Assembly: GCF_964204645.1 (NCBI RefSeq)
Contig: NC_134030.1
Coordinates: 9,980,278-10,044,277, forward strand
DNA: 64,000 nucleotides
From: Tubulanus polymorphus
Lineage: Eukaryota; Nemertea; Palaeonemertea; Tubulaniformes; Tubulanidae
Reading direction: 5' to 3'
Program-made: the position numbers and the translations under genes
The notes under the pieces: model-generated
Databases searched by the model: none
The model's input: the letters and a program-made list of their open reading frames with translations, nothing else
Told to the model about the DNA's origin: nothing
Shown: positions 1 to 63,919 of the stretch, one piece after another
How positions within the stretch are numbered: position 1 is the first letter of the stretch
Layout of the letters: every line of letters begins with the position of its first letter

Positions 1-1810
1 ATGGAGTATTGGGGAACTGGAGCCTGAATAATCGTCCATAAGAGTCCATAATCGAAATTGAAATATGATCCGTAACATAAAAATAAAGACTCAAACATAT
101 AATACATATGTATGCAGTTTAAATATCGCGATTGCAATCAGAAAATTAATATTTGAGCAATAAACAATAAATTTAAGTAAATCTATGCGTGTAGCAAGAG
201 TACATACCGGGCAAGACGATAACGACATTTTTGGCACAATATACAAATTTTCACACTTATAATACAAAAAATCAATGGTCGAGGGTCAGACCGGAATTTA
301 TAAAGTACTATACCGGGTATGTACGAATTCCAGCGATTTAATTATGGATTCTAGGCTGCTCAAACCACGAGGAACAAAGCCTAGAGTGCGCCAAATATAC
401 CAACAATAGTTACTATAACGCGATTAAGGTCATTAAAATTTCGAACGAAACCGACGCACGTAAAACGTTATTATAGGTACAATATACCTGTGCACATGTA
501 CATAGAAATAAAACTTTGAAAATAAAGAGAAAACGAGACGCGAGAAATTTTTCCATAAATTTTCTACACAAGATATATAACACGTTGATATAAATATGAA
601 CACGGGAAAAACCTCCACATTAGAATCAGGCGTAGTTCGAAAGAATTTACATATCCATTCAGATATAACATCAGTGATGCTACTGTTGACGTCTCTTTTC
701 ACGAGTAATATATTAAAGTCTTCGTGTAGTTATATAATCTTCCAATTTGATTGCGCAGGAACCTCATCTCAACTGACATTTTCGATTGAAATAAGCCAGA
801 AGTTTCAAATCGGAAATTAAGTACCGGTACAAAAGCCGGAAGTTTGTCATCTGATCACCGTGCTTTCAAGAACTGATCATCAAAGCTTCATCAAACAATG
901 GTGAATGTCTTCAGAGGATTGGTTTCAAGCCAGAGATAGATATCCGTATTGATTTAGATGTACAACACGGAACCGAATATACAATCTTTTCTTTTTACGC
1001 ACAAGAAACCGACAAAATTGATTCAAATATTCATTTTCGAATTTTCTCTTTTAACGCGGATAAGGAATCAACCAATTTTTTCTGCTAAATTCTCACTTAC
1101 GTACATTTACAAAACGTCCTGTCAAAATTTCATCACAGCCTTAATAACAGTTTTCATATTTCACTATTCCCATATATGATATCGATATATACATTTTTCA
1201 CTCTATATTAATCCCTGTCCTTCACAAGTCTGAAGGCCAAGCCTACTAGATTAAAGAAAACAAAGTCCAAAAACATTAAAATAACCAGTACACAGGCCTA
1301 CCGGTTTACAATAAATACAAGAGGGCAAATTTCGGATTGAAGTTCCAGCTGTACTGTAGCTACAATGAACATAATATACCTGGAAGTATTGACCTGAATT
1401 GATCAATAAAATCGATAAAGTGACTTGAGGGGTCCAGCCTTAGAGAACCACCCTTATCAAAATAAGCAAAGCAGAATCATCTCTCTTCTTCGTCAAAACA
1501 TTGAACCTTGCTTTTGCGGAATTTCCACACGCAACAGTTACATCATTTCTTTGTAACAGTCGAGAAAGTAAGAGAACTTCTTTTCATCTTGTTTTACACC
1601 GATGAATACCTCAATTAGTTAACCCACACAGTTTCAAAATCAATCAAATATTATATCATTCGTAGTTAATCAAACAAATAGTTAAACTAGATCTATTTGG
1701 AATGGTGTTTCCATTAAGCGAGAACTAATGTGATCTTCATCTTTTTCAATTAACGTTTCTGCAGTTTTTTTGTTGTTATTTTTCTAATTAAGAGTATACA
1801 TAGTTCTATA

Positions 1811-1834
1811 CATACATACATACATACATACATA
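1811..1834. repeat. (TACA)n microsatellite
   Basis: About six uninterrupted copies of the tetranucleotide TACA, followed by a short imperfect extension. Confidence 0.9.
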
Positions 1835-1844
1835 TGTAAACTTT

Positions 1845-1850
1845 TTTATT
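1845..1850 (-). promoter_or_regulatory. Candidate polyadenylation signal AATAAA
   Basis: AATAAA on the minus strand lies about 78 bases after the TAA stop of the TAX1BP1-like gene, a usual distance for a short 3' UTR. It is assigned by position only. Confidence 0.5.
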
Positions 1851-1927
1851 TCATTACATTAACAACAGGCAATCGAAATCTTGTTCTTCGAATATTGGTT
1901 TTAATTTTTTTGTAGATTCTAAGAATC

Positions 1928-4900
1928 TTACTGCGTTTTGAAGTGTTCTTCGATGTGTTTATTCAACGCGTCCGGACTGTCGAACAGGCGTTGACACATT
2001 GGACAACTCATGCCGAAATGATTCTGCACGTGGTCTTCGAATTGAAGTTGCGGATATTCCGAGCTGAACGTGACGCCGCATACCGGGCAAAGTTTCTGGG
2101 GTTCGCCGGCCGCATCAGAAAACCTACAAAATTTAGAATCTTTCTATCAAAACGCTTGCCATTCCATTCCTTATGTTGTCTTTAAAACCGTCAGTTGAGG
2201 TATCAATCCCCTGCCTGTACCCATACCCTAAGACAAGTATCATTTCCCATCATCATCATCATCATCATCATACAGCACCTCATAAATACAAATTTTGTGG
2301 GCAAAAGTGAAATTGTCGTATTAACCCTTTCAGTGCTGACTAATCAATGAATAGTGCTGGAGATGATTTGAAAATTTTGGAAAATTCCACCCTTGTGTGT
2401 TGAATAACGGGAATACCACTATAGTGCATACACACCGCGGCGCGGTGAATCGTTAGTTACTCATATTTCACTACATTTGACAGGTGCTGCCATTTTCAAT
2501 AGAGATAACAACTGATGATTACTAATTACATCAATACACCGCAGTGCGGTGTACTAGCAAAATCCATCACCGATTTATACACCGCACTAGAGTGTAGATG
2601 CACCCGAAAGGGTCAGAGTTTTTCATATTATCCAAATCTTGGGCTGGTTGCTGAAAAGTTGGTTACAGTTAACCATTGATAACCATTGATAGATAATTGA
2701 CATGGTGACAATTAAAAGTTCGATAGATAATTGATAATCAATAGATAATTGACATAGTGACAATTAAAAATTCAATGTTACTAAAGTATTTATCCGTTGG
2801 TTATCTTTAACCGACCTTGGACTGGCCCCAGCAACTGGCCCCAGGATTGATATAGATATGTTAGCTGGGACATGCTGGAAATCATCATAATAAATGGGTT
2901 CCATCTTGAACCGAATCGTAATTACAAGGTTCAGCCGTATCATTGTTTACCATCAAAGAAGGCCATAAGTCTATATATACAACCTCTTAGCTTTGATATT
3001 CAATGTCCTTTGTAAAGAAGGTACTTAACATACCTCTCTTTGTTTTTTTGAGGTAGCTGCCATAAAAATGTCCTACTTATTTATCTTGTACATGGTTCTA
3101 AAAAGTTTCTATGAAATGAGTTTATCTCTCGTTGAAAAATATCAACCCTTTCAATATCCATTTTTGTGCAATTTCCAGCGCGTGTGGTGATCACAGGGAT
3201 AAAATGTTTTGTCCGTCATTTACAAATAAAGATACCTCGCGCTGGGTCCAGACAGGAGACTTTCACGATCAATAAGGATGGCAATAGTCTGAAGACTGTT
3301 GGAGGGAGGGTTCAGACAGTAGATTGATAGCTGAATCGATGATACTCATTTTGTATAGACACTTCTTGAAATCACTATATCATAACTGATAGTTACCAGT
3401 ACGGGGACACACATATACATACCCTTCTTCATCATCACAGTCTTCACCAGTTTCAGGAACGATATGATCAACATTTTCGCGTACTCGAATGTCTTCTACA
3501 ATGTAATCATATCATATTATTATTTACTGTCAAAGGAAGGCCATAGCCCTAGATAGGACATGTAGATCTTTAGTGTCCTTTGTGATATAGGTATTCACAA
3601 AGTAGCTCTCTTAAATTGTTAACTGCTATAAGTCCTACTTTATGTCTCATGGTTTTGGCTTAAAGTTTCTATCGTATAAGTTTTCATATATCCTAATAGT
3701 CATCTTCAGGAATACTGATACAATACTCCTGGAGATAACTGTTAGGATATAATCAAAACGTCAAATGAACTAACTACTAGCTCAAGAAAACGTTTTTGCA
3801 CCTTATCATTTTTCTTTATTAATTGTCGGATTCCCTTTATATATCATTGTCACAACACAAATATAGTGTCTTATTAATGGTGACTCTCATACTGTTAAAT
3901 GTTGAAATTAAGAAAAAAAATCAGAATTTTCGGTCGTTCTCTAAGAACTGTTATTATGGAATGATAATGGTTTTAAGGGAAAGACCGATAATCAGGATTT
4001 TTAGAATAAAATTTCAACATTACGATATTTTAGATTTTTCGTCTCATGATTGTGAGACTTATCTAAGCTTATCTAACTTTCATACCTAGTCTAGTTGGAG
4101 TTTGGTAGCTATCGTTGACGTGGTGCACCGCCTTGAAAACCGCGGCGAGTTTAGCAGACGGCAAAACCTCTGGTTGCAACGGCAGCGGATACTCGGTCAC
4201 CGGCTGCGACAGTATGTCCGACGAGTCGTCGGTGTCGTCGCTCGGCGGCGCCGTCGGTTTGACGACGATATTCGCGCGGCAGAATCCATCGGTTTCCGAA
4301 ACGGGCGGCGATGACGACGACCCAGCCGATGCCTCATCATATTCGTCATCGTTACGTCGTCGTTGTTGAAGCGATTTGATGCGGTCGTTGATGTACGACT
4401 CGAATCGCTGTTTGTCTACGTTGTCGCCGTCAGTCGCGGTGTTGCGATTCGACTGAACTAATCGCGCGACGCCTGGGAATGTTTTGCGATCCAAACGCAC
4501 GACTTCGAACTTCGTCGGATGCGTCGCATTGGACGACGTGGTGAGTTTAGCCTGAAATGAATGTGAAAATTATATCTAATTCATCGTTCCCAAGGTTACA
4601 TGACTTAGAAATTCCCAAGTATTTCAAATGGGTGATTTTTCCAAATGGAAATTGGGCCTTAATTAAAATGAACAGATGCCATCATTCGTACTACATTTTA
4701 ATGTTTGCTGGTTGATAAAGGAGATTTTCAGGATAATTTGCTGAAGAAAGTTCCCCTTGGCAAATGCAATACGTGAAATGTATATGAATTTCCCCCAATA
4801 TCTCCCTGACTAGAAGAAAATTTCTCAAATATTTCCAAACTGGGATTTATCATTTCAAAATTCCCAAGTTTTTCCCAATTTCCCAGTACTGCGGGAACCG

Positions 4901-7900
4901 TGCTAATAGCATTCGTCCTGGGAACCGAGAAAATAGCACAACGTAAAAGTTTTTACCATTTTAAACCCTTACGTTTGGTTTTCGGGATTTTTGAGTAAAC
5001 GGGTTCATGTTTATAAGACTTGGAAGAATAAATAAACCCGGTAGAATATGACTGATGTATGTAAAACCACGTTCGTAGATATTTACCTCATTTCTCCAAA
5101 ATCTGACTTCATTTTTCAACGAATCGATTTCTGTCTTTTGCCTGTCAATAACATCCTGCAATGCATCCACATAGAATTCATACATATTCCGGTTATTTAG
5201 AGGCTTAGCTTATCAAGACGAATAAGCCACGATCGCGCGAGCATCCATTGGCCAAGGAACAACTGTTCACACAAGGGTGCCAAATGGGCCCATGTCTGTT
5301 TGGCCCGACCAAAAATGTCAGACCAGACCCTAGCCGAATTTTAGCACAGGTCAAACTGGTGCACGTGAATTGCAACTGGTTCCGGAAGCGGTTGACTTTG
5401 GTTTTTTTAAGAATTGCTTAGGATCGAGTGAGTGGTTTAAGCGTGAACGCACCCTCTAATTAGGCAAAATTTGACTCGGGTCTGATCCAGGCCAACTTGG
5501 GCCTGTCTGAAAAGGTTGGTACTGGCCGCAGATAGATACCGCCAAATCGAATGACGATCATAGTACGTACGCACCTGTAGAACATGCACGCGTTGATTGT
5601 AATCGAATTTGAGATCCTCCATATTCTTATTTGATCTCTCAAGATTTTTCCGATACTGACGCACTTCGTCGAGAAACTGCTGTTGCAGCACGGTGTTACG
5701 TTCTTTCACGTGTTGCAGCATCTGTTTGTATTTCACTTTCTTTTCGGTGCGCGACTCCAGTTCGACGGAGAGCGATTCCAGTTGAGCTTGTAAATCGACC
5801 GGTATGTGTTGTTGCTCGGCTTCGGTCGCGTCATCGTCGCGGATGATATCATCCTTTTCGACTTGCGTGCAACTTTCGCGTAGGGCTCCTGTCATTTAGA
5901 AATAGGGAAAATGTTTTTTTACGGACGACCACGCGCAATAATTTTGGTCAATTCTTTTATCTATACTATATAAGAACAACGGCGAAACTTTGCTTCAAGT
6001 TTGCACGGTCGGTGCGCTATTCATTAACAAGTTTATGTTACCAAATGAAAGATACCGAAAGGTTAGTTATAAGTCATAGCTTCAAGCTTAGGTGCCTAAT
6101 ATGAATGCAGCTGACAGATTTCAAAATTGCTGAAACCGATTGATGACCCTCGATCTAGCATCAATTTAATTGCTCTATTGCTTTACTCTATCACTATTGA
6201 ATTACGCGAACTTACGGTCGAGGAAACTACGTAATTCCTGGTTTCTCGGGGTCGGCTGCTTGTCAATACACGCCGTTGACGATTTAGTCTGCAATTGTTG
6301 GCTTTCGCAAATGACCGGAGTACTGGTGCCGCTGGTCACTTGTGAAACTGAAAAATGCAAACCGTACAAGGGTCTTGTAACAGAAGCCCGACAACAATAT
6401 ATCTGCCCATTGATACCTGTACCCCTTGTTCATATATGTTCACCAGCAGTCACCTCTTTCCAAGTAAATAGAAATGGAATCTGATCTCTGATCAACAACA
6501 AGGGGCCAGTTTCACAAAACGAAATTATCCATAAGTAGTTGACAAACTATTCATTTTGACAAACTCGTCGACAAAACTTTTCAAACTCACTTCTCATGAG
6601 CCAAAGCTTCTCTCGTCATAATGGAAAGTTTGCAATTCTAAATAGCAGGAAATCATTATTTCACAGTTGTGAAACTGGGCTATTGTTTCTTGCAGGTTTA
6701 AAATTGAAAAGTACCGATTTTCTTTGTTTTCTTCAGTTCACTGTGCAGCTTTCTGCATTCAACGAATTTTGCCTTGTACTCGTCAGCACCCATACACAAT
6801 CTCTCCTTCAAATCGGTGATCTCGCGACGCAAATCTGACTCGACCTGTTGCTTCAAACGCTATAGTCAAGAAAGATGTACAAATCAATTTACGTTCCGAG
6901 GAAAATAATTTTATTAGTCATTTGTTGCGATCGCATCGTTCTTTTTTTTCATATTCTATCTGTATATTCTAACACCTCAATACTTGTGGATATATCCGTT
7001 CCATAATATTTATTGTACCGTATTGTATTTCTATTATAGTGACATGTTAATAAATCATGAGTTATGAGTAGAGACCATGACAATGATTTAAGGATTTTAG
7101 AGCCCATTCCATGATACTCAAGACCTCGAATTGACCCATTCCCATTTAAAAAATTTTAACAACTTCATGGACTGCCATGAACTGGTATGTTTACCCATTA
7201 GACACCGCAACTTCATATTTATGTTCCAGAAAAACAAACGCTTAATTAGCCAATGAAATTTGCATATAAAGATTAAGTAGAGATACAGTGTGATAACTAC
7301 TGAAAATTATGAATTATAACAATTGGTTATTCTGAAGATAATCATACAGGCTTTCCATCGCTGTATAGATTTGGTCAATCATTGGTCAAAAGTTTGACCT
7401 TTGACCCCGTCAAACTATAGGTGGCGTAACAGTACAACGGACGTAGGCGGACGTTCTGCGGAGATACGAGTCGAACGTCGACGGATTCTGCGGTCTAATG
7501 GGTTAATACACTATTGCACGTACAGTCAATTGGTTACAGACAATTTGGTTAGGCTAAGTCATCGTAGACGAAACAATCGTTATGTTGATGCTTCATCCAA
7601 ATGATGACTGACGCTTAGAAAATTGAACTGTACATATGTACAAATTAGGACTCACAAATACTGACGAGTTCAGAAATGTGACTAATTAACAAGCGTTGAC
7701 CGTGTAGGACGATACGCGAATAAAAAGTACGTACCTGAGTTTTGATTGTGTCTTCCAGTTGTAGGCGAATCTCTTCGTATTGTTTGCGATATTTCGACAG
7801 GCGTTTCTCCAAACACAGCTGCGCCGTTTTCATCGCGAAGATCGCGCCGTCCTTCTCCTTCTCTTCCTCTTTCACTTTTTCGACGTATGTCTGCTTCTCC

Positions 7901-27765: not shown

Positions 27766-28106
27766 GCCGGCCCGGTTTGATTCTCTGCCATAGAATTGTC
27801 ACCCGCTGTAATTTATCTAACAAAAGACTCATAAACTAGGCGTCCACGATTCAATTCATACGACAAACTTTTTTCGCATTTCATCATTTCTCTGGTGCAG
27901 TGTCTGAAAACAGCGCCAGGCATTGTGTCGACGTACTAACCTTAAATAGATTTTGAGTAGTTTGCATTTTTCATTAACTCGAAATAGAATTTGCAAACCT
28001 TCAAATTACATAAGACTCCGAGGTAATTAACCGAGCGAATCTTTCGTCCACAATTATAAATCCACAGATCATATCAAATGTTTTTGACGTTTTTGGCGCA
28101 GGAGTT
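27766..28106. other. Intergenic, no feature seen
   Basis: Unique-looking sequence between the GPCR start and the foldback element. It should include the GPCR promoter, but no core element is evident. Confidence 0.5.
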
Positions 28107-28165
28107 ACCCCTGTGAAGCTGGCTCCCGGTTCCCGGTTCATTATTCGGCTCCCGATTCAAAATGC

Positions 28166-28457
28166 TTTTGAACCGGGAGCCGAATCGGGAACCGGGAACC
28201 GGGAGCCGGCTACTGGTTCAGCTCCCAATTCAAAATGCTTTTGAACCGGGAGCCGAATCGGGAACCGGGAACCGGGAGCCGGCTACTGGTTCAGCTCCCG
28301 ATTCAAAATGCTTTTGAACCGGGAGCCGAATCGGGAACCGGGAACCGGGAGCCGGCTACTGGTTCAGCTCCCGATTCAAAATGCTTTTGAACCGGGAGCC
28401 GAATCGGGAACCGGGAACCGGGAGCCGGCTACTGGTTCGGCTCCCGATTCAAAAGCA
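28166..28457 (+). repeat. Left tandem array of the foldback element (4 x 73 bp)
   Basis: Units start at 28166, 28239, 28312 and 28385 with almost no divergence. Each unit ends in CAAAATGC and contains an internal imperfect palindrome around AATGCTTTTGAA. Confidence 0.9.
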
Positions 28458-28999
28458 TTTTGAACCGGGAGGAAATCGTCACACGCGTGGTGTTAATTCA
28501 GACGTCTCGATTAGCCTGGTGGCCGAGGTCAAGGTCGCACTCATTTCAGCAGACATAGTTACGTAATTATGTTTACCTGCTGTCCGCAATAGAGTCGAAT
28601 CGAATAAGTAGCCAGCTTCACATTTTGCAATTGAGACGTCTAAACAACCATCTTATCTCTGCGCCAATGTTAGTGGTCTCACTGTTTTACCATGCAGCCG
28701 TGGTAACTATTGGATTAGAATTTTGTGTGCGCTCTCATTTCAAGCTATTTTCGGTTTAGGGATGAGAAAAATGTTCTTTTATGTTTTCTATGGAATTTGA
28801 TAGATAGGAAAATATTAAGTTTAATAGAATATTGAAGTGATTGTTTTTTCATCTTCGACAATGGATTTACCCTGCATGAAGGGTGATTTATACGGCGGGC
28901 AGAAAGCGTCTGTTTATTTTATATCTTACAATTTCATGGGCTTGCAGATATTGTTTTCTTGGGGATTCGATAACTTTCGTTAGAAACTTTCTCTCTTCT

Positions 29000-29025
29000 T
29001 AACCCTTTCAGTGCTGACTAATCAA
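29000..29025 (+). mobile_element. MITE family A end fragment inside the foldback element
   Basis: The sequence TTAACCCTTTCAGTGCTGAC matches the left end of family A. The rest of the MITE is missing. Confidence 0.55.
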
Positions 29026-29393
29026 TACCCTATAGCTCGGGAACAATCGATGGTTTATTGATTAAATGATTAAAGAGGCGAATAACATATGAAGAAGTCG
29101 ATTGGTGACGAGAAAAACGACCGAGCAATACGCACGTTCTTAAACCAAGTTATGTTATTAATAGACGCAGCTTACTGACGTATAGCTACATACAGCTGAC
29201 CGCGAGTCTCGCGGTCGCATACGCAATCGTGTTTACACGTCTGGATTGGCTCGCGCCACACCTGGCGATTTCTTGTCAAGGTCGAGGTCGAGTTTGTTTA
29301 TCAGCAGAGTAGACATAGTTACGTAAAATGTCTGGACTACGGCATAGTGTATACCAACGCCACCTGGCGAATAAGTAGCCAGCTTCACATTTT

Positions 29394-29790
29394 GAATCGG
29401 GAGCTGAACCAGTAGCCGGCTCCCGGTTCCCGGTTCCCGATTCGGCTCCCGGTTCAACAGCATTTGAATCGGGAGCTGAACCAGTAGCCGGCTCCCGGTT
29501 CCCGGTTCCCGATTCGGCTCCCGGTTCAACAGCATTTTGAATCGGGAGCTGAACCAGTAGCCGGCTCCCGGTTCCCGGTTCCCGATTCGGCTCCCGGTTC
29601 AACAGCATTTTGAATCGGGAGCTGAACCAGAAGCCGGCTCCCGGTTCCCGGTTCCCGATTCGGCTCCCGGTTCAAAAGCATTTTGAATCGGGAGCTGAAC
29701 CAGTAGCCGGCTCCCGGTTCCCGGTTCCCGATTCGGCTCCCGGTTCAAAAGCATTTTGAATCGGGAGCTGAATAAGGAACCGGGAACCGG
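29394..29790 (-). repeat. Right tandem array of the foldback element (about 5 x 73 bp)
   Basis: These are the same units as the left array, inverted. Small differences occur, such as AACAGCA in three units versus AAAAGCA in the outer ones. Confidence 0.9.
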
Positions 29791-30123
29791 GAGCCAGCTT
29801 CACAGGGGTGCAGGAGTTGGGAAAATGAACATTGCTGCAGAGTTCTGATACCACCACACAAAACCAGTCAGTCCCGCTTTCCAAACAAATCTAACCGGGC
29901 CGGATTCAGTGCGTTTTTGCAGAGCGGACTAGCAACACTAGCTTTTAACTGAAAAAAAATCAATTGGTTCCTATTTTCTAGAAGCTATCAATGAAAGTTA
30001 TCTATTCGAAAAGAACTTCTGGATAAACACTATCGAGATCTGATGAACCGCTGCCCGAGTAGTACCCAGTCGCACTTCTGGCGGCCCGCACAGGTGCCGG
30101 ACCGGTGCCCGCGGATCAGATGA

Positions 30124-50821: not shown

Positions 50822-51319
50822 TCAAGTGTTGAGTTTAACCAGTTGACAGAGGAATTTAGATATAAGTTTATTATGGGGTGAAAAACCATTGTTTAGGTTT
50901 ACAACGTTGTTAGAATTTTCAATTATTAATGCAGATTCCAAAATATGTCTTTTAGTTTTATCGCTGCAAAGGTAAATTAATTCAGCATTAGCGAAATCAA
51001 AATTGTGTGAAGTCTGAAATACATGACTAGCAACTCCGCTTTCAGGTTTAAAGTTTTTTACATCTAACTTATGCTCTTTTATGCGTTGATTAAGGTTCCG
51101 ACCTGTTTCTCCAATATATACTTTGTCGCAAACTTTACAAGGTATTTTATAAATTCCACAGTTTAGGGATTCAGTTTTCGGTTTGTTATTGATCAATATG
51201 TTACTAAGTTTATTATTGTATTTAAAGATAAGTTGTTTATTTAGTGACCGAAGAGAAACTTTAGAATTCTCGAGGAAAGGTACATACGGTACAATGATAG
51301 GCTGTTTATCGGTAGCCAA
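50822..51319 (-). pseudogene. Penelope GIY-YIG endonuclease domain
   Basis: This frame carries the linker PIIVPYVPF, then the GIY-YIG motif as CGIYKIPC...KVYIGETGRNL and QRIKEHK, ending at a natural stop after LCQLVKLNT. In the intact element it is fused to the reverse transcriptase. Here a one-base insertion in a T run near 51340-51345 breaks the join between THF and RNNN. The domain nicks target DNA to start reverse transcription. Confidence 0.88.
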
Positions 51320-51344
51320 GGTAGGAGTTCTAAGGTTGTTATTT

Positions 51345-52545
51345 CTAAAAATGCGTAGTACGAGCTTTAAGGAGAGCTTTTTTCAATATGAAATCGGGGT
51401 AGGCAAGTTTTTTGAGAGATTGGTTAATATGTTGAATTTCATCGGGTAGAAATAAGGGGTCGCAAATTCTCAAAGCGCGAAGAAATAATCCTTGAGCTAA
51501 ACCAAGTTTAATATCTCGAGAAGTAAAAGAGAAGTAATGGAGGTAGGATTCAGCGTTGGTAGGTTTCCTATAAACCGCGAATTTCAAAAAGGATCCACAG
51601 TTAAAAATCAAAACATCCAGAAAGGGTATTTTACTATTAGATTCCCATTCATATGTAAAAGCCAGAGACGGGTAAAGGGAGTTTAAATATATAAGAAAGT
51701 TATCAACATTGAAGTCAAAGGGAACCAAAGCCAGAACATCGTCAACATATCTGAGCCAGATTTTAGGGTGAATATCAGTATAAAGAGGCGATATTTCAGA
51801 TTCAACATGTTCTAGGAATAAATTAGCTAGAATAGGACTAAGAGGGTTTCCCATAGCGATACCGAATGTCTGTTCGTAAAAACAATTGTTGAATTCAAAA
51901 AAGGAGTCCGTCGTACAAATAGAGATAAGGTCGATGATACAATCCGTAGGAATGCCGAAGTTAATATTAAGTGATGGTAATCTGCGTTTTAAGAAATCAA
52001 GAGTAGGTCCAAGAGGAACATTGGTAAAAAGGGAAGTAACATTAAATGATATAAATTTGTCGTTGCCAGCGATAATATTCTTAATACGTTCAAGTAAGTG
52101 TTGATTATGGCGAAGGTGCGACGGAGAGAACGAACCGAGCACAGGAGATAACTGTTTCGCGAGCAATTTTGATAAGCGGTATGTAGGAGAATTACAATTG
52201 GAGACTATAGGGCGCAGTGGACCATTATCTTTATGAATTTTAGGCAATCCATAGATATATGGTAAAGAGGGAAGACGTGAATGGAACTTATTCAGAGTTT
52301 CTTTAGCGGTGGGAAAACGTTTAATAATATCCGAAAGACTTCTGTTGAAATTAGCTTGCATACGAGGAAGAGGATTCGATTTAAGCTTTTTATAAACACC
52401 AGGATTATCCAAGAGAGATTGCATTTTAACATAATAATTATCCAGATCTAAAATCACAATCTTGCCACCTTTATCAGCCTTAGATATTTTAATAGTCTTT
52501 AACTTCCGTAGTTCTTGGAGGGCGAGCCGAAATCGACGAGGTAGA
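51345..52545 (-). pseudogene. Penelope reverse transcriptase
   Basis: The open frame starts in KTIKISKADKGGKIVILDLD and carries LPYIYGLPKIHKD, RPIVSN, the FTNVPL segment, GIAMGNPLSPILANLFLE and the catalytic box as RYVDDV. These are reverse transcriptase motifs typical of Penelope-like elements. It reads into KARTTHF and is then shifted out of frame from the endonuclease. The N-terminus is separated by a short insertion at about 52546-52660. Confidence 0.9.
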
Positions 52546-52660
52546 TATTCATTTCATTTCATTTCGTTTATTGTAACTTTGTACAAAGTACAGTATACAA
52601 ATATCGTTCATGTAATACATATTATAATATAGTGGCAATACATACATACAAAGAGTTTCC
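52546..52660 (-). mobile_element. Short retroelement 3'-end insertion inside the Penelope element
   Basis: On the minus strand, about 100 bases ending in ACAATAAACGAAATGAAATG plus further ATGAA repeats separate two parts of the Penelope protein that should be continuous. The microsatellite-like tail is usual for truncated LINE or SINE ends. Confidence 0.5.
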
Positions 52661-57217: not shown

Positions 57218-59400
57218 TTTTTTATATAAATCTCTTAGTCTTCTAAAATTGTGAGATTAAAAACACAGAATATTTCGAAGGGAGCGATTGTCATAAAATA
57301 TGTATAAATATTGCGTTTTGATTAGGCATTTTGTAGCTTAAAAACAGTGTGAATTTCTGTTAACATTTGCATTTCGTCCCTTTTCGTTAGTTTCTCAAAA
57401 TTAACACTTTTTCTCACGACTATTCGTTCTAAAATCGATCTAAAACAGAATCAATTGGGTTGAAATTATTTCAAGTTAGATAATGTAATAAAACGGTTCG
57501 TTGTCAAGTTCCTTTTCTCCTTAGTATTTTTTCGACTATCTCGACTTTTTCGACCTACTTCTCGCTTATACTGAACTCACCTTTCCGAAAACTGTTTTCG
57601 GAATAAATTGAAATCGTCACCTACGATCGCGGATCTATCAGATCTATCAGACACGTCCATGAGCACATTCTATTTCTTCATCGAACTCAAATCGCATCCA
57701 TATTCAGTTGTATTATGATTTCAATATACGCTTTGTAACCGCGTATCGAATCTGATGTATAAATTGATCACAGCCTAATAGACGACTTCTGATAACAACG
57801 GGACTAATTTTCAATTTAGATAACTTATAAATTAGATAGTTGATATACGATCCGATACAGGTGGTACGACAACAGGTCATTAAATAAAATATTGCGTCGC
57901 GTCCACCTCCACAGACCTCGATATCTCGCTTTCTAGTAGTCGAATGAAACTCCCTAATCCGTGTACACTGTAGGTAATCGAGGTTAATCGAATCACTTCT
58001 ACTCCACTAAGTTAAATGATTTATATCCAGTCTGAACTGTTCATAGAATTGTGTGGTTTCTACAGTACCCTGGTTGTATTCATTTGTTGCTTGTTCTGTT
58101 TACCTTAATTCTGATACTTAAGCTTTTGTTTATGTCCTCTGAATTTATCTGCTCCGTTACATCTGTTTTTGGTCATTCCACCTGATGATGGCTGTTTGTC
58201 AACAGCCGAAGCGTTGTGGTATCGTCTCAATAAATTATATCGTATAAAAATTCGAATTGTGGGACTTCTTCGATTATCTTTCATTCCACTCGCTCTTTTT
58301 AAGGTAGCGACATTATCGGTACGTAATTAACGTTTAATGAAATCAATCGCAATGTTGGTTAGAAATATTTCGAACCGCTTCACTTATAGCGGGGTAAGTG
58401 ATAGCTTTGTAACTGGGAGTGAGACCATAAGAGAAAAATCAAGGATGTTTGACGAATCGGTAGATCGGTCCAAGGAACGTCCAATCAGAGTCATCATGGG
58501 ATCTTTACAGGAATAGGCTTGTATGTGCATCTATAAATAATAGCCGCGATCACACGGAGACGATTCGGCCCGAGCCAAATTAGAGGGCGCGCTCACACGC
58601 AAACCATTCACTCAATACTAAACAATGCTTAAACAAACTGAAGTGAGTCACTGCCGGAAACAGTAGCAATTCAAACGCATTATTTGTCCCGTGCCAAAAA
58701 TTTGGCTCGGGCCTGGTTCGATGTTTTTGGTCGGGCCAAACAGGCATTTGGTACCCGCGTGAACAGTTGTTCAGGGCCAAAACGCTCGTGTGATCGCAGC
58801 TAATGACTATTCACTAAACGGTATCGAAATGGCAAAGAATCTCTCAAACAGGAACTGCGACTGCTGCTATCAAGAGAAGTTCAAGTTCAAGTTCAAAAGA
58901 GAGGTGTGTCGCCTGACGATGATCTCTAGGGTAAGATCGAAACGTCGTATTTTCTATATATTTTACATTGAATAAATAAATTCTTGTTTTAATCTGTAGA
59001 TAGTGGGTTTTTATCTTATTATGTATATGTATATATGACGGCTTCTAAATCCGGAATATGATTAGTGTGACTTGGGTTTTCCGATCAGCCCTTGAAATGT
59101 ATACAGAACGCGGTAGGGGATATATCATTATCATTATATACATAACTTCCATTTCCCAATTATCATTCCAAGAGGGCATTAGGCTTTTTATTCAATGTAT
59201 ACCCCCCTTGAGTCCCTTTTTGTCCTTTGCCTCTATTACGCTGCACAATGTAGAAGTATTTTCCTTACATTTCTCATGTGTTGGCTTTAATTTTGTATTG
59301 CACTTTTGAGTAAAGAAACAAACTTATATATAATTAAAAATCAAAATGGCGGCGTAGACACAAACACATTTCCGAAGCTCCGCTTAAAAGTTGGTTTAAG
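57218..59400. other. Intergenic stretch with a Penelope-type end and a MITE
   Basis: No supported gene. It contains hammerhead-like cores at 58182-58212 and 58913-58943 and a MITE at 58541-58802. The final few hundred bases probably belong to the 5' UTR of the LINE that starts coding at 59401. Confidence 0.55.
58541..58802. mobile_element. MITE with TAGCCGCGATCACACG ends
   Basis: The 262-bp element has inverted ends TAGCCGCGATCACACG and (as complement) TAGCTGCGATCACACG. A related block in opposite orientation lies at about 5215-5500 in the TAX1BP1-like gene, sharing TTTGGCCCGACCAAAAA and GAACAACTGTTCAC. Confidence 0.75.
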
Positions 59401-60429
59401 GTGGTCCGGTGTAAGTTTTTTTTGTGTGGATTTTTTCGTTATATCGCATCATTGGTACTGTGGATGTTCACTATGGTTGGTGGAAATGGTAAAAAGAAAC
59501 GCAATAAGTCTGGATCTGATGTTACCGCGGTAAAACGTCGTGATCAGAAAAAGACCCCTAACAAGAATCCAGAATGTACTGGTGACATAGGTGACTGTTC
59601 ATCCGAATCGAGTGATCACGGTGATAAGCCTAATATAGACAGCGGAAATGACAGCAATGCGAGTCTCGGTGATATTGTTGCTATGTTGAGCGACATGTCA
59701 ACGAAATTAAATCGGTTGGAGCCAATCGAAAAGGCAATGGAAAATCTGTGCACAAAATATGACCAAGTGTCGACTGATAACAAAATCACGAATGAAAAAA
59801 TCGGTACATTGACCGCCGAAGTTGGCCGTTTACGCATGGAAAACGTGAAGTTGAGCAATACCGTGCTCGACTTACAATCACGATCTATGAGGGATAACCT
59901 CCTCTTTTTCGGCGTGCAGGAGGAAAAAGATGAAATCGTGGCAGATAGAATCTACAACATTTTAACGTCGGAGGCTGGAATAAATGATGCGCGTGACAGA
60001 ATAAAGTTTGTACGTGCACACCGTGTCGGAAAATATAGTGCTGGAACTGTGCGACCGATTGTCGTTAAGTTCCACTTTTACCCTGATAGGGAAGAAATTC
60101 GTGGAAAATCCGCACTTCTGAAATCTCGTGGTCTTAGAATCGCCCAACAAGTCCCTAAAGAAATCCGAGAACGTAGAAAAGCGTACAACAACGTTGTGGA
60201 GGAGGCAATTACCAGAGGTGATAAATTTCATTTCATTGGAGACAAACTTTACCTGAACAACCGCTTGTTCCAATTCAATGAGAAAGATTCAACGACACCC
60301 CCATCCAGACTTAATAAGAACGGGCTGGACAGCCAGATTGTTATCGATCGCGAACAGAGGCACAATAGCGATGTCCGTGACGTGAGTGATGCCTTGCGCG
60401 AGGCACGTGCCACCCTCGATATGGAATAG
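59401..60429 (+). CDS. LINE ORF1 protein (coiled coil plus RNA-binding domain)
   Basis: 342 residues; the likelier start is the ATG at 59473 (MVGGNGKKKRNKSG), giving a basic N-terminus. A coiled coil runs from about LNRLEPIEKAMENL to LRMENVKLSNTVLDLQSRS. It is followed by an RRM-like segment starting MRDNLLFFGV and a conserved KFVRAHRVGK...RPIVVKFHF part, the layout of L1-type ORF1 RNA chaperones. It ends in TAG at 60427-60429 in the same frame as ORF2. Confidence 0.8.
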   Translation: MVRCKFFLCGFFRYIASLVLWMFTMVGGNGKKKRNKSGSDVTAVKRRDQKKTPNKNPECTGDIGDCSSESSDHGDKPNIDSGNDSNASLGDIVAMLSDMSTKLNRLEPIEKAMENLCTKYDQVSTDNKITNEKIGTLTAEVGRLRMENVKLSNTVLDLQSRSMRDNLLFFGVQEEKDEIVADRIYNILTSEAGINDARDRIKFVRAHRVGKYSAGTVRPIVVKFHFYPDREEIRGKSALLKSRGLRIAQQVPKEIRERRKAYNNVVEEAITRGDKFHFIGDKLYLNNRLFQFNEKDSTTPPSRLNKNGLDSQIVIDREQRHNSDVRDVSDALREARATLDME

Positions 60430-63400
60430 GAAAGCGTCGGAAATAATAATAACGCGGAACGATTGAAACTCTGTTTCTTAAATATTAAAGGATTATTCAG
60501 TCGGAAAGCTGGTACACGGACATGTAAACTGGACCTTCCGGAAATCCAGGCTTTATTAGACGTGAATGATATAATCGCATTCGAGGAAACCTGGAACTCT
60601 AAAGACACCGTATTTTCAGTACCCTGTGGATATACGTTTTTTCAAAGTACGAGAATGAAAAACCCTCGCGCGCGTCGAAATTCTGGCGGATTGTTGCTAC
60701 TTTTTAAATCCGAATTACGGCAGGGTATTGAATTATTAGAAAATAACCATCCTGATATTTTATGGGTGAAATTATCAAAAGAATTCTTTAATTTTGAAAG
60801 AGATATGTTTGTTTGTTTAGTGTATGTAGCTTGTGATAATCGTAGCACGGATGACTTCTTTCATGATCTGAGTTGTCAGATACTTGCTCATCAACTTGAT
60901 GGCAATGTATTGGTGGCTGGTGACATAAATGCACGGACCAATGTATACTCGGGTCTCCCTCCCGATCCGGATGCTATTAATATGCAATTCCTTGAGTTCG
61001 AACATGGGGTACGAAAATTACTTGAAGACCATGATATTGACACAACTAGATCACCTCAAGATGATACTGTTAGACCAGATATTAGAGGCATGAATATGAT
61101 AAACATGTGCATAGGTTGTAATTTGTTAATATTAAACGGTCGGGCATTTCAGGATAAATCGGTTGGAAAGTTTACGTGTCATCAACCAGGTGGCAAAAGT
61201 ATGGTCGATTATGTATTAGCCGATTTTAACATGATTGATATACTGTCTGACTTCCACGTGTCTGACGAATTACCTTTCTCTGACCACGCGATAATTTCTT
61301 TTAGTTTGCAGGCTAGGATTGATAAACACGATAATACCTCAAATACAAATTTTACGTCCCATAACAAAACTACTTGTCACAAATTCAAATGGCGTAAAGA
61401 AAGGGAAGTTGAATTTGCTCAGTATATGCATTCAGATGATACCCAATCTTACCTCAACGATATTATAAACAATGCAATGAATAGAGAACATAATGAGTTT
61501 TCAATTAACGAATTGGTTAATGATTTTTCAAAATTCTTCCAGACTGCGGTCGAAAAAGTTCATGGTTCATTTCAAAATTCGAGGAACATGAATAACAATA
61601 GGCCTATATCATGGTATGACGGCTCGTGCAGAAAAGCACGACACCGACACAGATTATACCCGAATGATTTAAACCGATTTCTGGTCAAAGAAGCACGGGA
61701 TAAATACAAGTCCACTATAAATAGTGCTAAAGCATTGTATGATGAACGTATGCTGGATGACCTGCTGAAAGCGCTAGATTCAAATAACCACAGAGATCTA
61801 TGGTCAAAATTTTAAGGGCCCAATGAATACGTTGATACTCAACTAAGCATTGATGACTTATATGAGCATTTTAAAAGTATCTCGTATGAAGATCGCCCTC
61901 CACTGGATGTTGATATCGACGTATCTGATCACATAATTGATCAGCAAATCACATTGGAGGAGGTTAATAGAGCATTTAAAATGCTTAAAAGAAATAAATC
62001 TGCAGGAATAGATGGTATAAAAGGCGAGGTATTTATCGCTGGTGGCAACCCAATTGTTACTCAACTTACTATTCTTTTTAATATTATATTAGATAGTGGA
62101 CGGTATCCCGAATCATGGAGCACTGGCTATATTGTTCCACTACACAAGGGTGGTTCAAACAATTCAGCAAATAATAACAGGGGCATAACCATCTTGTCGG
62201 TATTTGGCAAACTCTTCTCAATAATTTTGAATACTAGATTAACTTCATGGTGTGAGGCATACTCTGTTCTATGGGAGGCGCAAGCTGGCTTTAGGCCAAC
62301 TTATAGTACAACGGACCAAATATTTGTATTGAATTCAGTTATAAATCACCTGTTAAACAAGAATTGCAAATTATACGCGGCCTTCATTGATTTTTCGAAG
62401 GCGTTTGATTTGGTTGACCGCTCGTTATTACTACAATAACTCTCTGTGAGTGGGATCTCGGGTAAAATATTATGTATTATCAATCTATGTATATGTCCAC
62501 AAAATCATGTGTAAGATATCAAAACCATTACTCTGATTATTTCATTTGTGAAACAGGGTGAATGTCTATCACCTTTACTTTTTAGTCTCTTTATCAATGA
62601 TATGGAAAGCTGTGTGAAATCCGGAAATTATGAGGGAATTGATATGGGAACTCTGAAACTATTATTACTCTTATATGCTGATGACACGGTAGTGCTGGCA
62701 GATTCTCCTGACTCTCTTCAAGTGGCGCTCGATAATGTTTATATCTATTGTGAAACCAAACATATTAAGATAAATTATGATAAAACAAAAATAGTTATAT
62801 TTAGGAAATCTGATAACGCTCGGTTATATAAATGGACAATTAACGGTCGAGTACTTGAATGTGTGAGTCATTTCAAATACCTAGGCTTGGTATTTAATTT
62901 TAATGGAAAATTTACTCAAACTATAAACTCGCTAGCAAATAATGGAAAAGCAGCGTATTTCACATTTCGCCTATATCTTTTACGCTACCCAAACATAACA
63001 ACACGCTTAGCATTCAAGTTCTTTAACCCCATGGTTGTACCGGTCTTAAACTATGGATGTCAAATATGGGGGTTTCAGGTAGAGAAGAAATTGGAGCGCA
63101 TTGTTCTTAAATTCTATAAATCTCTACTGGGTGTAAAACAGACCACACCGGACTTTTTTGTCTATGGGGAATTAGGTGAATATCCACTGTTTATTAACCA
63201 GCGACTACAGGTACTGAAATACTGGCTAAAGATCATTAAAACAAAACCTGAAAAATTTTCAAAAAGAGTAAATGATTTCATGTTCACCGAATGTCAAGGT
63301 TCACTTCACATAGTAAATTGGGCATCAAAAGTTAGGGATCTGTTGAATAGCCTGGGATATGGCGAATTCTGGATTAATCAGAGGGTTGAAAACGAATTGT

Positions 63401-63609
63401 GGTTTATCCGTTCAGTCGAGCAACGTATGAAAGATATTTATTGTCAAAATTGGTTTAATGCAATATCTACGTCTAATATAGCGTTATACTATCGGGACTA
63501 TAAAATGACTATCATGTATGAGCCATATCTGGACATGTCAAAATTTATTAGAACTACTATAGCAAGATTTAGGTGTTCAAGTCATGATTTAAAAGTGGAG
63601 ACTGGTAGA

Positions 63610-63633
<24 letters not shown>
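60430..63633 (+). pseudogene. LINE ORF2: APE endonuclease and reverse transcriptase, broken
   Basis: The same frame continues directly after the ORF1 stop. The N-terminal AP-type endonuclease shows LCFLNIKGLF, FEETWNS, VAGDINAR, NGR, VDYVLAD and SDHAIISF. The reverse transcriptase follows with KRNKSAGIDGIKGE, VPLHKGG, NNRGITILSVFGKLFS, QAGFRPTYSTTDQIF, FIDFSKAFD, QGECLSPLLFSLFIND and the catalytic YADDTVVL box. It ends [17 protein letters not shown]. Stops interrupt it at 61813-61815 and 62437-62439. A short shifted and deleted segment lies around 62470-62555, where GTGAAACAGGG appears once although the protein on both sides seems to need it twice. The copy cannot be active. The exact LINE clade is undetermined. 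Confidence 0.88.

Positions 63634-63919
<286 letters not shown>

Follow-up and report, generated by a model that had tools for sequence, protein, structure and literature searches.

A non-coding foldback element with mirrored 73-bp repeat-array ends and its family in the genome of Tubulanus polymorphus

Two opposed arrays of a 73-bp unit, enclosed by inverted ends and by the same 9-mer on either side, raise the question of how such a structure came to lie in a chromosome of Tubulanus polymorphus, how its unusual ends were formed and which enzyme moved it. The structure is part of the window, the whole stretch of 64,000 nucleotides analysed here (C6:9980278-10044277 of a 267.8-Mb genome).

The element in the window

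The copy in the window measures 1703 bp and is flanked by two exact 9-mers (Table 1). A first-pass annotation had given its span as 28098-29818, which is correct if both 9-mers are counted, while the element itself occupies 28107-29809. The exact outer ends and the identical flanks described there were confirmed, the 16-bp motif at one end being matched without exception by its complement at the other. The opposed, nearly identical arrays were likewise recovered by TRF, with 97% matches in the left and 98% in the right array, and the outer arms (28107-28456 and 29460-29809) are 98% complementary over 350 nt. No frame of at least 150 amino acids is present in the copy, and no Rfam match was obtained in the window. 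The description of a 0.9-kb centre without a transposase thus stands, but this centre is not a neutral spacer, as it matches the inner domain of one arm of the long relatives described below. Long inverted tandem-repeat ends around a variable centre, the build by which foldback elements are recognised, are found in this family, and the assignment of the window copy to a family of non-coding foldback elements with mirrored-repeat ends is well supported.

Table 1. Features of the foldback element in the window (window coordinates)
Feature	Position	Strand	Basis
Left target-site duplication, 9 bp, GCAGGAGTT	28098..28106	.	Sequence; family-wide 9-bp duplications
Complete non-autonomous foldback element, 1703 bp	28107..29809	.	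Ends, arrays, flanks
Outer terminal motif ACCCCTGTGAAGCTGG	28107..28122	+	Sequence; 27-mer has 133 ends in the genome
Left array: 73-bp unit with its own palindromic core, 4.5 copies	28144..28471	+	TRF
So-called centre, equivalent to the inner domain of a single arm in long relatives; starts at the conserved junction ...CGGGAG/GAAATCGTCACACGCG	28472..29387	.	
First internal head motif, reverse complement of TGTGAAGCTGG	28601..28627	-	
Second internal head motif, on the inner margin of the right array	29368..29394	-	
Right array: same 73-bp unit, 5.3 copies, in the direction opposite to the left array	29388..29772	-	TRF
Outer terminal motif, complement	29794..29809	-	Sequence
Right target-site duplication, 9 bp, GCAGGAGTT	29810..29818	.	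Sequence

Two other elements were observed in the window. On the minus strand, two adjacent frames at 50822-52553 are reverse transcriptase-like and GIY-YIG-like (NCGIYKIPCKVCDKVYIGETGRN), and presumably represent a Penelope-type-like element. A LINE-like run of four frames at 59338-63885, with a coiled-coil ORF1, an endonuclease and a reverse transcriptase as judged by eye, ends in a (TA)n repeat at 63644-63885.

The family, its target duplications and empty sites

A DNA search of the genome gave 203 matches. The outer 27 bases of the element occur at 133 places with at most three mismatches and a reversed-pattern control at none, so the family ends are not due to chance; 100 of the 133 places were listed, and the comparisons of ends with transposase matches refer to these. 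Ends were paired and flanks read for 36 copies (30, one copy on C5 and five further copies). The outer boundaries, whose variation between copies had been named beforehand as evidence against a transposon, do not differ in the other paired copies. Of the 36, 19 are flanked by a perfect duplication of 9 bp (16/30, 1/1 and 2/5), and 25 have at most one mismatch in it (20/30, 1/1 and 4/5). More than one of the nine positions differs in the other 11, among them L051 with an 8-bp repeat and copies whose flanks are unrelated, a pattern that an exchange of ends by recombination among copies would produce. When 80 distinct ends were compared all against all, exact complementary 9-mers paired only the ends of the same copy, with the exception of an extra pairing between E8 and L038, which has a flank in common with E8.

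The search for empty sites started from 17 copies with perfect duplications. In each, the two flanks were fused across a single 9-mer, and scoring covered 40 of 2660 first-look candidates. Among these, element-free target repeats were found for four of the 17 copies, each carrying the 9-mer once. Two places, C12:8473600 and C8:8396772, match the joined flanks of the 11.8-kb copy E1 at 100% over 150 bp, and many more do so at 99%; the 9.8-kb copy E8 has three such places (95-97%), the C5 copy one (98%) and the 1.1-kb copy L065 seven (84-93%). No empty site was listed for the other 13 copies, including the window copy, among the 40 candidates scored, and no locus was seen in both its filled and its empty state. 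Target duplications and empty sites are the marks of transposition in a foldback element, and the first-pass reading of a foldback-type transposon with a 9-bp target duplication is borne out for the family.

Recent activity, also proposed earlier, is indicated by the C5 copy (C5:17075862-17095416), which has TGTGAATGT on either flank. Its last 1638 bp differ from the window copy at three positions (99.8% identity), and this near-identity means that the movement was recent. Inside its left array (L070, L035) lies an insert of ~18 kb with inverted ends of its own (AGTAATAGGGATAATAGGC...) and a 6-bp duplication, ACCGGG, read at two edges only; we take this combination to be the Maverick/Polinton pattern. 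Gene conversion, the alternative named in the first-pass annotation, draws no support from a comparison of unit-to-unit distances within and between elements. For 39 units from 13 elements, a difference as large as the observed one arose in 45 of 500 shuffles, and the comparison was discarded as unsound because its anchors mixed registers, with 45 of 100 units being 73 bp long.

A pattern for the same 12-bp end with another interior, covering part of the possibilities, gave eight places, two of which are family members, against two for the control. Ends leading straight into the inner module occur at only two places at three mismatches, both of them array-like. Solo ends (L071-L075, L078, L079 and L081) are read as fragments or captured ends.

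Size range, inner layers and the origin of mid-size copies

In size, the copies extend from a near-perfect hairpin of 115 bp up to 11.8 kb or, where nested material is included, 42.8 kb. Sixteen are shorter than 400 bp, and 11 of these fit a length of 115 + 73n, with seven copies of 115 bp, three of 188 bp and one of 261 bp; the remaining five measure 102, 143, 176, 235 and 387 bp. Two 115-bp copies, L052 and L053, folded as single DNA strands into hairpins with a 3-nt loop, the first paired throughout and the second with one small internal loop. Their folding energies are -78.4 and -73.7 kcal/mol (z -23.5 and -20.4), and none of 200 shuffles of either folded as well. The large end comprises copies of 6-12 kb and two still longer spans, one of 32.9 kb with a single mismatch in its flanking duplication and one of 42.8 kb between perfect copies of ACCAGAAAT.

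The 5.8-kb inner stretch of the 42.8-kb copy that was read contains foreign genes. In this nested piece (L110, C6:17996000-18001800), frames at 828-3095, 3195-4760 and 4735-5799 resemble what we take, by their motifs, to be a virus- or Maverick-type DNA polymerase; they gave no Pfam polymerase match and only weak matches in a PDB search. An intein interrupts them, with matches to TIGR01445 intein_Nterm (31.4 bits against a cut-off of 24.5) and LAGLIDADG_3 (31.0 bits against a cut-off of 22.5). The intein-bearing piece has at least 114 genomic matches of 87-100% identity (114 of 1537 candidates scored), some with stops and several in open frames near 1690 amino acids. An intein within a many-copy element of a eukaryotic genome is worth a separate study.

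The long copies have kilobase segments in common, which are ~89-99% identical and often inverted. Inside E1, E4 and E8 the head motif TGTGAAGCTGG occurs 18 times, always pointing inwards, and it occurs twice inside the window copy. Sixteen of these 20 internal motifs come directly after an array that breaks off at its palindrome tip (...TTCAAAA/TGTGAAGCTGG), as if material had been inserted at the tip of a hairpin. This arrangement would fit small copies being the original form and the long ones having grown by capture of sequence into the palindrome tip, and such capture would account for the inner layers better than recombination between arrays does.

The junctions of the mid-size copies tell against growth as the whole account. 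In seven of the eight long copies, the exception being E7, an internal array is followed by the junction ...CGGGAG/GAAATCG, which is separated from the end on that side by 5.3-10.6 kb containing two to six head motifs. The window copy and its C5 twin, as well as L040, L065, L068 and L069, have this junction 68-360 bp from an end, and no head motif intervenes. In L064 a second internal-array junction is 121 bp from the end, compared with 8.9-10.9 kb in E1, E2 and E3. Altogether, a fused edge is found in five of the six complete mid-size copies (980-1703 bp), namely the window copy, L064, L065, L068 and L069; the sixth, L066 (1121 bp), is unfused, with 729 bp and two head motifs between end and junction. 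L066 and L068 have no duplication, although L068 has the fusion, and the duplication of L064 has one mismatch. As this class needs deletion or exchange, we consider it unlikely that the small copies came first, with capture at hairpin tips as the route to the long ones.

The simplest reading of the junctions is that an internal array recombined with the far terminal array and the rest was deleted, and the window copy itself looks like a deletion derivative formed by array-to-array recombination. Deletion by recombination and growth by capture at hairpin tips may both have occurred. In the mechanism that we propose, a transposase supplied in trans would recognise the ACCCC-TGTGAAGCTGG termini and might also recognise the adjoining repeats. 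As arrays of the same kind sit inside the long elements, an inner array could recombine with an outer one, which would delete the intervening DNA and keep a working end. Mid-size copies, the window copy included, would be the product, and the 115-bp hairpins with their 73-bp increments may have arisen in the same way. More tentatively, and with somewhat less than even confidence, we suggest that one palindromic unit plays two roles, building the ends and providing internal recombination sites that re-cap inner segments; the sizes of a family without recognisable genes, from 115 bp to 11.8 kb (42.8 kb nested), would then be set by array recombination and not by random deletion. The second fused inner array, in L064, strengthens the case for such a dual role.

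Source of the transposase and known relatives

The first-pass annotation had pointed to longer copies with the same ends as possible carriers of a transposase. Longer copies were found, but no transposase gene with these ends. None of the stop-to-stop frames of at least 130 amino acids in the eight long copies is recognisable as a transposase, and six-frame Pfam scans, which covered parts of two of the eight long copies (E2, 9.1 kb; E7, 4.6 kb), gave only matches below cut-off. Introns and divergence may hide an autonomous copy.

Two candidates from elsewhere in the genome were rejected. A 471-amino-acid SWIM/MULE frame, present in three copies that are 99.7-99.8% alike (L041-L043), is placed 9.95 kb away from an element. 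The sequence read stops short of the frame's own ends, and the flanks downstream of it resemble additional exons together with a tandem repeat. PF20700 gave 44 matches in the whole genome, none within a paired copy as judged by eye, and was dismissed because the young copies compared have TTAAGGTAG-type ends. These young PF20700 'Mutator' transposons (L083-L094) include two pairs, L084/L085 and L086/L088, with TTAAGGTAG-like ends, which are suggestive of a TTAA-targeting superfamily.

The genome also holds a coding foldback element of another family. Its two copies (L048, C5:10706212, and L049, C7:13341325) are ~2.7 kb long and 99.7% alike, with a frame of 444 amino acids that contains MULE and FLYWCH domains. 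Their ends are inverted arrays of a 16-bp unit, CCACTAGTCCGGGGGT, unlike the ends of the window family; the duplication is 9 bp in L048 (TTCTGATAC) and 8 bp in L049. The presence of this foldback MULE makes mobilisation of the window family by a MULE likely. According to PMC6446971, Mutator elements have target duplications of 8-11 bp, and Rehavkus elements a 9-bp duplication with a minisatellite near the TIR; the family agrees with both descriptions, and its 9-bp duplication hence suggests a MULE or Rehavkus. The link to Mutator made earlier is plausible, but none of the 56 PF10551 matches listed for the whole genome lies in a family copy, and the nearest are ~10 kb from a family end (both among the 100 of 133 ends listed). 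On balance, a Mutator/MULE-type enzyme, the Rehavkus branch included, is the likeliest source of the transposase, and probably the actual one.

A 9-bp duplication is not diagnostic of any one superfamily. The elements could be foldback derivatives of another superfamily with 8-9 bp duplications, for example Merlin, that supplies the transposase, and 43 whole-genome matches to PF12762 (IS1595/Merlin) show that such transposases are present in this genome. None of these lies within a paired copy, so that the IS1595-type transposase expected of a Merlin element was not seen within these ends (by eye, 100 of 133 ends listed). The perfect family duplications are moreover 9 bp long, save for the one 8-bp case, L051, and a foldback MULE exists in the same genome; a source of this kind is rather improbable. 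A reading without any transposon, in which gene conversion and segmental duplication multiplied the arrays as a satellite or palindrome, is barely credible in the face of the 9-bp duplications, the empty sites and the unrelated flanks. In its favour, the number of 73-bp units varies and some copies have spread by duplication. Two family ends in opposite orientation 1.2 Mb apart (L080, C2:12776960, and L082, C2:14000550) have their flanks in common, as well as ~1 kb of 99.9% identity, and represent either an inverted segmental duplication or an assembly effect.

With good confidence, then, we regard the family as a non-autonomous, cut-and-paste foldback DNA transposon that would depend on an enzyme supplied in trans, most likely of MULE type, and whose mid-size copies probably arose through array recombination. 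No paper with the family end and unit sequences was found in a literature search, and the family, of a known foldback build, is new as judged against the literature and not against a repeat database; its unusual traits are the ladder of a hairpin plus 73n and the layered reuse of the unit. It bears on the question of how foldback elements gain and keep repeat-array ends. In a single genome, copies that share their ends occur as hairpins, as ladder forms, at mid-size and with several layers, next to empty sites and a foldback MULE from a different, coding family; how events followed one another and what array recombination contributed can therefore be tested directly. The near-perfect 115-bp hairpins, at seven loci read, are natural substrates for studies of chromosomal palindrome stability.

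Drosophila FB elements have long inverted tandem-repeat ends and a 9-bp duplication. The window family resembles them in both traits, and differs in that no gene was recognised in any scanned copy. Comparable too are the Tetris/DAIBAM elements of the Drosophila virilis group, which have a foldback build, tandem units of ~220 bp in the TIRs, 8-10 bp duplications, no known coding copies and a short MITE-like relative with the same ends (PMC4079207). Lacking a transposase, the authors of that study inferred Mutator membership from the 8-10 bp duplications and from other foldbacks (PMC4079207). Compared with what is given there for Tetris, the present family has a 73-bp unit, 36 paired copies read as against three structurally complete ones, a near-perfect hairpin of 115 bp as its minimal form and several inner layers in its long forms (PMC4079207). 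Tm1 of root-knot nematodes (PMC3169594) is similar in its foldback-like composite TIRs, its mostly 9-bp duplications and its MITE-like and larger forms, and differs in its units of ~14 bp, its asymmetric terminal motifs and a known transposase-bearing copy, one element encoding a putative MULE transposase. Rehavkus, whose transposase has a PHD finger, combines satellite-like repeats in the inverted termini with a 9-bp duplication, as the family does, but has, in Rehavkus-1_TC, a unit of 164 bp instead of 73 bp (PMC10218199 and PMC6446971). Galileo, of the P superfamily, likewise has long repetitive TIRs into which inner sequence was recruited, and recombination between copies has been proposed to reshape them; it differs in its P-type transposase and its TIRs of up to ~1.26 kb, and the available sections of PMC3573991 describe no hairpin ladder of the kind formed by the 115-bp copies and their 73-bp increments.
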